Of a DNA stretch of 64,000 bases, positions 1,501 through 2,853 are shown piece after piece. Below the pieces are notes generated by a model. That model made no database searches. It was not told where the DNA came from and saw only the letters and a program-made list of their open reading frames with translations. The position numbers were made by a program, and so were the translations under genes. Within the stretch, counting starts at the first letter, position 1; each line of letters opens with the position of its first letter. Source of the DNA: Arthrobacter bussei (lineage in GTDB: Bacteria > Actinomycetota > Actinomycetes > Actinomycetales > Micrococcaceae); NCBI RefSeq assembly GCF_009377195.2, contig NZ_VJXX01000001.1:1302001-1366000 (forward strand), written 5' to 3'.

Positions 1501-1600
1501 GGACGACCGGCGGTGACCGCCGGGCGACAAAGGCAAACCCGGCGTGAGCCGGGGACGCAAAGCCACGGGACCCACGCGGTCAGCCGGGCTACCGAACCAG
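1501..1600 (+). promoter_or_regulatory. cyclic di-GMP-I (GEMM-I) riboswitch
   Basis: The aptamer is recognisable by its invariant blocks: AGGCAAACC (1531-1539), a hairpin CGGC-GUGA-GCCG with a GNRA tetraloop, GGGACGCAAAGCC (1551-1563), then a second arm ACGGGACC...GGUC with the tetraloop-receptor side CAGCCGGGCUACCGA (1581-1595). Order, spacing and loop type match the class I c-di-GMP aptamer (GEMM). A separate perfect hairpin (7-bp stem, CCGGCGG/CCGCCGG, 1507-1523) precedes it. The 3' end of the aptamer lies only about 20 bases from the ATG at 1615, so it may act on ribosome access; no terminator with a U-run is visible between them. The regulated gene is a secreted glycosidase. Confidence 0.9.
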
Positions 1601-1614
1601 CGAGGTACCCCCCC

Positions 1615-2853
1615 ATGAGCATCCTCCCCGCCCAACCCCTCCCGCCCGGAACGCTCCACGGCGCCACCCGGATCCTCCTGCTCCTCACCGCGATGGCCGT
1701 GCTGATGGTGGGCCTCACGCCTCCTCCGGCCGGCGCCGCGGCGACGATCACGCTGAGTGGCTCCGCCGGGACAGCCGGTGCCGAAGTCACCGTGACGGGT
1801 GCGGGCTTCCCCAAGCGCACGAAGGGGACCGTCGTCGCCGGCACCAGCCGCGTCGCCGTCACGACGACGTCCACAGGCACCCTCCAGGTGTCGATCGTGC
1901 CCGGGGGTTCGGGAACGGTGACCATCAGCGCAGCGGTCGGCAGCACCGCGGCCTCCGCCGGGTACACCGTCCTCGCGGCGGCGCCCGGGACCGACTCCGC
2001 GAAGGGCATCCGCTTCGGCGTCGGCACCGGCGGCGGCCCAGCCGCGGGGAGCGAGCTCGACGAGGTGGCAGCTCTGGCGGGCGAGGCTCCGTCGATCGTC
2101 CTCTCCTACAAGGACTTCAACCAGCCCGCACCCATCGCCGAGCTGGAGACCGTCAGGGCGCGGGGTGCCGAGACGCTGCTGACGTGGGAGCCCTGGACCT
2201 GGGGCGGTGGCACGGAGCAGCCCGCCTACTCGCTCGACCGCATCGCCGCGGGCGACTTCGACGCCTACCTGCGTGAGTGGGGCAGCGCCCTCGGGCAGTG
2301 GGGCCAGCCCGTCTACCTGCGCTTCGGGCACGAGATGAACGGCGACTGGTACCCGTGGTCGGAGGGCGTCAACGGCAACGGTGCGGGGGACTATGTAGCC
2401 GCCTACCGCCATGTGCACGACGTCCTCCGCTCCACGGGAGCCATGAATGTCAGCTGGGTCTGGAACCCGAACGTGCCCTACTGGGGCTCCACCCCACTGG
2501 ACGGCCTGTACCCGGGGCAGGGCTACGCCGACGTCGTCGCCCTCGACGGCTACAACTGGGGTACGTCGCAGTCCTGGAGCAGCTGGCAGGATCCGGCGGC
2601 GCTGTTCGGGGACGGGCTCGCGCAGCTGCGGCGCCTCGCACCCGGAACGCCCATCGTGATCGCCGAGACGTCCTCCTCCGAGCTCGGCGGCTCCAAGGCC
2701 CGCTGGATCACGGACCTGTTCGGATACCTCTCCGCGCAGCCGGACGTGGTCGGCCTGGTCTGGTTCCACATCGCCAAGGAGGCGGACTGGCGGGTCGACA
2801 GCTCGACGGCGTCGGTCGAGGCTTTCGCGACCGCCCTCGACGCGAGGCGCTGA
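1615..2853 (+). CDS. secreted GH26-type glycoside hydrolase with N-terminal Ig-like domain
   Basis: A 412-residue exported enzyme. Residues 1-43 are a signal peptide (hydrophobic run LLLLTAMAVLMVGL, cleavage near AGA-A). Residues about 44-125 form a beta-rich Thr/Gly/Ser domain of IPT/Ig type. Residues about 135-410 are a TIM-barrel like GH26: the acid/base glutamate sits in RFGHEMNGDWYPW (Glu240) and the nucleophile in VIAETSSSE (Glu351). GH26 enzymes cut beta-mannans and related beta-glycans; the true substrate, possibly a self-made or biofilm polysaccharide, is not shown. The start at 1615 is chosen because it gives a clean signal peptide directly after the c-di-GMP riboswitch. Confidence 0.88.
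   Translation: MSILPAQPLPPGTLHGATRILLLLTAMAVLMVGLTPPPAGAAATITLSGSAGTAGAEVTVTGAGFPKRTKGTVVAGTSRVAVTTTSTGTLQVSIVPGGSGTVTISAAVGSTAASAGYTVLAAAPGTDSAKGIRFGVGTGGGPAAGSELDEVAALAGEAPSIVLSYKDFNQPAPIAELETVRARGAETLLTWEPWTWGGGTEQPAYSLDRIAAGDFDAYLREWGSALGQWGQPVYLRFGHEMNGDWYPWSEGVNGNGAGDYVAAYRHVHDVLRSTGAMNVSWVWNPNVPYWGSTPLDGLYPGQGYADVVALDGYNWGTSQSWSSWQDPAALFGDGLAQLRRLAPGTPIVIAETSSSELGGSKARWITDLFGYLSAQPDVVGLVWFHIAKEADWRVDSSTASVEAFATALDARR

Follow-up and report, generated by a model that had tools for sequence, protein, structure and literature searches.

The window, as we call the whole 64,000-nucleotide stretch of Arthrobacter bussei DNA that was analysed, carries a compact RNA leader followed by a gene for an apparently exported glycosidase. 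The features of this locus are listed below.

1507-1523, + strand: P0 hairpin directly 5' of the aptamer, 7 bp (CCGGCGG with CCGCCGG) and a 3-nt UGA loop, read from the sequence
1523-1597, + strand: aptamer of the c-di-GMP-I riboswitch type with short P1, P2 and P3; 71.8 bits with Rfam RF03167, 65.2 bits with RF01051
1532, + strand: G, the counterpart of Vc2 G20 at model position 10; the base is the same in all 22 aptamers and all 50 leaders
1559, + strand: A, the counterpart of Vc2 A47 at model position 37; the base is the same in all 22 aptamers and in 49 of 50 leaders
1592, + strand: C, the counterpart of Vc2 C92 at model position 75; the base is the same in all 22 aptamers and all 50 leaders
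1602-1605, + strand: ribosome-binding site GAGG, 4 nt past the aptamer, read from the sequence
1615-2853, + strand: gene for a predicted secreted GH26 beta-glucanase-like protein of 412 aa (Pfam, match to solved chains)
1615-1740, + strand: apparent signal peptide of about 42 aa, by eye
1756-1959, + strand: weak TIG/IPT domain (Pfam 21.9 bits, cut-off 20.9)
2005-2844, + strand: catalytic domain of the GH26 family, from the match of aa 131-410 to chain 2bv9
2332-2334, + strand: codon of Glu240, predicted acid/base
2665-2667, + strand: codon of Glu351, predicted nucleophile

We chose the start codon at 1615 from the ribosome-binding site and the alignment of relatives. The ATG follows the last aptamer base (1597) by 17 nt, and not by the 20 bases given in the initial annotation. 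The exported glycosidase proposed there agrees with our analysis: the protein has the apparent signal peptide and scores 40 bits with Pfam PF02156 (GH26, cut-off 20.2). The two glutamates named as catalytic, Glu240 and Glu351, indeed fall opposite residues 109 and 222 of chain 2bv9 in the alignment, presumably the catalytic residues of that enzyme.

The nearest solved chains are all Endoglucanase H, the best being 2bv9 (E 1.8e-50 over aa 131-410), which we take to be the Clostridium thermocellum lichenase Lic26A (CtLic26A). The best chain of any other name is a GH26 entry at E 1.4e-9, and the best named mannanase stands at E 2.1e-9. Despite this likeness and the two aligned glutamates, the window protein differs from CtLic26A in having no Pfam dockerin match, in its N-terminal TIG domain and in its proposed control by an RNA. 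The GH26 family has branches that include lichenases, and such enzymes use two catalytic glutamates (PMC6556568). By its sequence, the protein is predicted to belong to the lichenase branch of GH26 and to act as a secreted, retaining beta-glucanase. Because Endoglucanase H is nearest and lichenases are among the branches of the family, its expected substrate would be beta-1,3-1,4-glucan or a similar polymer rather than mannan.

Class and pocket bases of the aptamer

A cmscan of the whole window left RF03167 (c-di-GMP-I-GGC) as the sole riboswitch match after clan competition, with 71.8 bits (E 4.8e-15) against a gathering cut-off of 59. Searched alone, RF01051 (GEMM-I) gave 65.2 bits, also far over its gathering cut-off of 35. 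The conserved aptamer blocks that had been described by inspection are all present in order at 1523-1597 on the + strand, together with the GNRA hairpin (a GUGA tetraloop on P2). The identification as a c-di-GMP-I riboswitch therefore stood as to class, with its RF01051 score and canonical pocket, and failed only in that the highest-scoring model is RF03167 and not RF01051.

Since this clan holds variants, we examined the bases of the ligand pocket at model positions 10, 37 and 75, the counterparts of G20, A47 and C92 in the Vc2 aptamer from Vibrio. The ligand-contacting trio G1532, A1559 and C1592 is the canonical c-di-GMP set, as expected of RF01051, with which the window aptamer also shares the P2/P3 architecture and the GNRA loop. 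The consensus of RF03167 carries G at model position 37, from which we derived the signature of the GGC group, whereas the window carries A. Filing the aptamer as a GGC variant by its Rfam name was thus rejected, because the base that is altered in that consensus is unaltered here.

Given this canonical pocket, the aptamer would be expected to bind c-di-GMP. The window's genome has six GGDEF and five EAL matches, so c-di-GMP can be made and degraded and its presence in the cell is plausible. A different ligand, such as cAMP-GMP or that of the c-di-GMP-I-GGC group, is an improbable alternative. It would fit RF03167 being the best model for the window aptamer and for the two other copies in the same genome (L003 with 64 bits; L002 with 56.5 bits, below the cut-off of 59), but the base at model position 37 is A in the window as in all 22 aptamers, the RF01051 score is well above its cut-off, and enzymes of c-di-GMP turnover are encoded. 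Position 10 is G; an A at the equivalent position goes with cAMP-GMP sensing. Judged by its sequence, the window RNA is a genuine and conserved member of the known c-di-GMP-I riboswitch class.

One response-regulator-linked aptamer, at L132:4577-4661 on the - strand (G206:C37), does have G at the A47 equivalent (GACGCGAAGCC), the signature of the GGC model, and is the sole exception among the 50 leaders.

Leader geometry and mode of control

Compared with RF01051, the window leader stands out by an additional 5' hairpin, a minimal P1 (2-3 bp in the alignment) and an aptamer that abuts the ribosome-binding site, compact features that other members of the family may share. The 5' hairpin covaries across the 50 leaders, with 80.8 % of cells paired compared to 36-47 % in slid controls. 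Two-sided changes number 23 and touch five of five pairs, a pair count that by itself was equalled in 61 of 500 shuffles of these related sequences. In the window, five of the seven P0 pairs are present in the RNA fold of 1502-1640; its P0 is shifted by a few columns from the common register and is not scored as paired there. An extended P1 was also considered and rejected, having no support in the leader test.

In 53 of 54 copies of the RNA an ATG lies 11-19 nt downstream of the aptamer, usually with a purine-rich ribosome site between the two; L015 is the copy with no ATG in this range. From the aptamer to the ATG, the + strand of the window shows no intrinsic terminator; two terminator-like patterns lie on the - strand only. 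Nor was a sigma-70-like promoter found in 1276-1700. Because the ATG follows at 11-19 nt and no intrinsic terminator intervenes, we infer that control is translational.

A helix sequestering the ribosome site was sought by folding 48 leaders, and the change in accessibility had no consistent sign. Mean accessibility of the ribosome site in the unconstrained and the aptamer-constrained fold was 0.40 and 0.33 for the GH26 group (n = 16), 0.40 and 0.48 for the GH16 group (n = 7) and 0.43 and 0.49 for the others (n = 25). Coevolution with the ribosome-site region was sought by permutation for seven leader elements over 50 leaders. None of the seven fitted its own partner better than the partners of other leaders (lowest fraction 0.15), and the P0 loop and the 3' strand of P1 fitted worse than chance. 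ON and OFF are near even as the direction of the switch.

Conservation and targets of the RNA in the genus

Searched for in the 38 genomes of the genus, the GH26 protein has 29 matches, spread over 23 genomes, and 24 of the matches reach 500 bits or more. Conservation of the RNA before orthologous genes in other Micrococcaceae, which the initial annotation had left to be looked for, is borne out: the RNA lies directly upstream of 18 of these 24 main matches and, outside the genus, of one GH26 gene from another genus of the same family (L019, G078). The six main matches without an intact aptamer comprise two with decayed copies, three with none at all (G208:C39, G210 and G079:C11) and one, in G197, whose upstream DNA is masked (masking in the same record, L033). 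All five weaker paralogues are without the RNA. Among the best 80 of 214 named GH26 loci the aptamer is found in ten (L023-L032), nine strong and one decayed (L025), and no convincing aptamer appears in the 68 more distant loci of this set (L035-L102; best 14.6 bits).

Eight diverged relatives with an intact aptamer (L024, L026-L032) are 84-95 % identical to the window over the aptamer, compared to 34-52 % at four-fold sites, 67-77 % in the protein and 59-71 % over the 100 nt upstream; outside these ranges are the near-identical L023 (aptamer 97 %) and the decayed L025 (75 %). Because the aptamer is so much better kept than the four-fold sites, this pattern points to selection acting on the aptamer RNA. 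It also speaks against the RNA being a decaying or non-functional remnant carried along by descent, as does the occurrence of the same aptamer before four gene types in one genus. Two orthologues have visibly decayed copies (G199 at 61.3 bits, L196; G130 at 34.5 bits, L200, the same as L025) and loss of the aptamer therefore does happen, as that explanation would have it; for the window we regard it as very improbable indeed. G130 and G199 are natural loss-of-switch lineages in their own right.

The ten aptamer-bearing loci are Arthrobacter by name except L029 (WNZI01000001.1), labelled Vibrio cholerae strain 35D, in which the protein is 75 % identical and preceded by the same aptamer. That record is probably mislabelled or contaminated.

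Over the genus as a whole, RF01051 has 48 matches in 32 of the 38 congeneric GTDB genomes. They precede GH26 (18), GH16-like (6) and GH5 (1) glycanases, a response regulator (22) and one masked gene, so that glycanases and the response regulator are 47 of the 48 targets. Three copies belong to the window's genome: besides that of the window there are L002, whose downstream gene encodes a GH16-like secreted protein, and L003, which is followed by a response regulator of the OmpR type. Adding six copies from three genomes outside the genus gives the set of 54, for which tblastn over up to 1.7 kb downstream assigned a response regulator to 22 (L120 and L128 included), GH26 to 19, GH16-like to 7 (one of them outside the genus, L142 in G009) and GH5 to 1. 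The five with no match are L118 (G197, downstream masked), L009, L021 and L022 (G078), and L015 (G038).

The GH16-like protein has no Pfam match, but a few source names label relatives as GH16. Its ExDxxE motif (E144, D146, E149) is invariant in 22 aligned sequences, and an AlphaFold model of middling quality (mean pLDDT 64, pTM 0.48) best matches Bacillus 1,3-1,4-beta-glucanases (1gbg, 2.4e-8). With the GH26 protein nearest to a lichenase and this fold match, two unrelated riboswitch-linked enzymes thus point to lichenases. The RNA is lacking at 5 of 11 GH16-like matches.

In 20 of the 22 copies before a response regulator, the first downstream ATG, 11-18 nt past the aptamer, is the start of a short ORF of 13-54 codons (L003:1594-1704 and 19 others); in L006 and L140 it is the regulator's own start. 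In 12 of the 20, L003 included, the short ORF overlaps the regulator, as located by tblastn, by 8 nt, which suggests translational coupling of the two. The riboswitch may act on the short ORF and, via this coupling, on the regulator.

A probable link to matrix glucan, and the wider set of targets

The initial annotation had connected the switch to remodelling or dispersal of the biofilm matrix. The link to a matrix gains from the co-occurrence and adjacency of GH26 with a cellulose-synthase-like glycosyltransferase (GT2) gene; dispersal would be only one possible outcome. In the window's genome this gene is:

L135 7602-9674, - strand (C29:72105-74174 in the genome): GT2 gene, divergent from the GH16-like gene, near bacterial cellulose synthase (E 9.9e-68)

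With 342 bits, the GT2 protein falls short of the 699 required by the CelA equivalog model. It carries the motifs QRLRW and FAVTPK; no PilZ match was found in it. It occurs in 25 of the 38 genomes of the genus (E up to 1e-100), namely in all 23 with GH26 versus 2 of the 15 others (Fisher 1.9e-8, uncorrected for kinship, a value that overstates independence because the genomes are related). Co-occurrence of GH16 with GT2 across the 38 genomes is not above chance (p = 1.0).

The two kinds of gene are also neighbours. GT2 and GH26 genes lie within 1.2 kb of each other in five genomes (47 bp apart in G213 and 72 bp in G171), two of these five GH26 genes having no RNA (G210 and G079:C11), and GT2 and GH16-like genes lie within 0.5 kb in three. 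The window's genome has the GH16-like gene and not the GH26 gene beside GT2 (the latter two are on contigs C9 and C29). The flanks of about 3 kb around the best 80 of 214 GH26 loci hold a GT2 homologue in 26 cases, 15 with E below 1e-40; the weaker 11 are 27-33 % identical, come all from Micromonospora or Micromonosporaceae and may be other GT2 enzymes. Loci with GH26 relatives adjoining GT2 homologues include those of Kocuria, Bifidobacterium, Gordonia, Sinomonas and Rathayibacter. No GT2 homologue was found in 42 riboswitch loci (118 kb, shorter) or in 103 kb of the window's genome, compared to 546 kb for the 80 GH26 loci.

We propose that the aptamer at 1523-1597 binds c-di-GMP and would control translation initiation of the gene 17 nt downstream. 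The secreted GH26 enzyme would then act on beta-glucan made by the cell's own GT2, as co-occurrence and adjacency suggest, and with one RNA class preceding three kinds of glycanase (GH26, GH16-like, GH5) as well as a response regulator, c-di-GMP would be coupled to the turnover or shaping of matrix glucan. In short, because the enzyme in relatives often adjoins the machinery for a cellulose-like coat, the switch probably controls the trimming of biofilm glue. We put the probability of this reading, in which c-di-GMP acts on translation and so on the turnover of a beta-glucan matrix made by the cell itself, at roughly two in three.

Alternatively, the switch may sense c-di-GMP as a sign of the surface-attached state while the GH26 enzyme serves feeding on plant, lichen or fungal beta-glucan. 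Such a role would suit the nearest solved relative, a clostridial endoglucanase (Endoglucanase H, to which we ascribe a cellulosomal role), the soil or leaf strains after which several relatives are named, and the GH5 and GH16-like glycanases that share the regulon. It sits poorly with the presence of GT2 in every GH26 genome of the genus, with the GT2 neighbours of GH26 in the five other genera and with the clusters of G206 and G210, where GH26, GT2 and regulators are together, and we consider it unlikely.

Turnover of the cell's own glucan, the reading we prefer, has parallels in known systems. Cellulose operons pair the synthase with a secreted endoglucanase, BcsZ; the pairing of synthase and secreted glycanase is the same here, with another glycanase family and with riboswitch control. 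More generally, c-di-GMP is best known for acting on matrix polysaccharides through proteins. The mixed-linkage glucan synthase BgsA of Sinorhizobium meliloti, compared here by its published description (PMC5567048), is likewise a cellulose-synthase-like GT2 without recognisable PilZ in a c-di-GMP-linked polymer system. For the present system the predicted point of action of c-di-GMP is instead the mRNA of a glycanase, and the GT2 is not known to bind it.

The RNA class is already known; what is new is the regulon, the target set, which we did not meet in the literature searched. A search for c-di-GMP riboswitches together with glycoside hydrolases returned none, which is weak evidence of absence since subscription journals were thinly covered. 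With the same limited coverage, a search for Arthrobacter, riboswitch and c-di-GMP returned nothing evidently on this system by title or abstract, and little on c-di-GMP in the genus. The proposed circuit, coherent and testable even with an RNA that is not itself new, would place an RNA switch directly on an enzyme predicted to cut a polymer, in a little-studied group. The leader would lend itself to use as a c-di-GMP reporter in these organisms, and the defined set of GT2, GH26, GH16-like protein and response regulator a handle on how matrix synthesis and trimming are coordinated.

Some of the GH26 clusters hold additional regulatory genes. The order in G206 is RR-SpoIIE, GT2, STAS, HATPase, aptamer and GH26, and G210 has the same gene order without the aptamer (by tblastn, not Pfam). 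STAS and HATPase genes precede aptamer and GH26 in G171 and G213, with GT2 convergent. The RR-SpoIIE, STAS and HATPase genes flanking GT2 form a partner-switch-like set (L204:614-4433 by Pfam; L205:2570-6350 by tblastn), which hints at a second layer of polymer control. Between the L003 regulator and the RR-SpoIIE protein encoded in the G206 cluster, the receiver domains share 49 % identity.

Beyond the genus, this class of RNA occurs widely among actinobacteria and precedes a variety of genes. It matches in 13 of 197 genomes of the family sample (three of them outside the genus), in 31 of 297 of the order sample (29 reaching the cut-off) and in 43 of 394 of the class sample, and is thus not rare. 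Class-level copies precede varied, often secreted or surface, proteins: by eye, 42 order and class loci have 16 type IV pilin genes (GFTLIELLVV motif) and four BldC-like regulators downstream. Of five loci examined with Pfam, two have PL14 with NPCBM and another has a GH5 domain.

As a more tentative proposal, to which we would give somewhat less than even odds, actinobacteria may have a c-di-GMP RNA circuit dedicated to the turnover of matrix beta-glucan. In it, one compact riboswitch acting on translation would have been recruited both to secreted beta-glucanases of unrelated families (GH26, GH16-like, GH5) and to a response regulator, so that a single messenger would set the cutting of a cellulose-synthase-like polymer and this step would need no protein effector. 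Recruitment of this kind may have occurred more than once, because the same RNA class precedes a PL14-NPCBM protein and a GH5-like enzyme elsewhere in the class.

Among individual loci outside the family, L160, L163 and L175 have aptamers before apparently secreted proteins, PL14-NPCBM in two and GH5-like in one. At order level, aptamers directly precede small MerR/HTH_17 proteins in L155, L159, L161 and L164 (Pfam for L159 only), which we take to resemble BldC. In L009 (G078:C167) the aptamer lies before a short ORF that by eye resembles a Flp-type pilin (GATAVEYALLVG).
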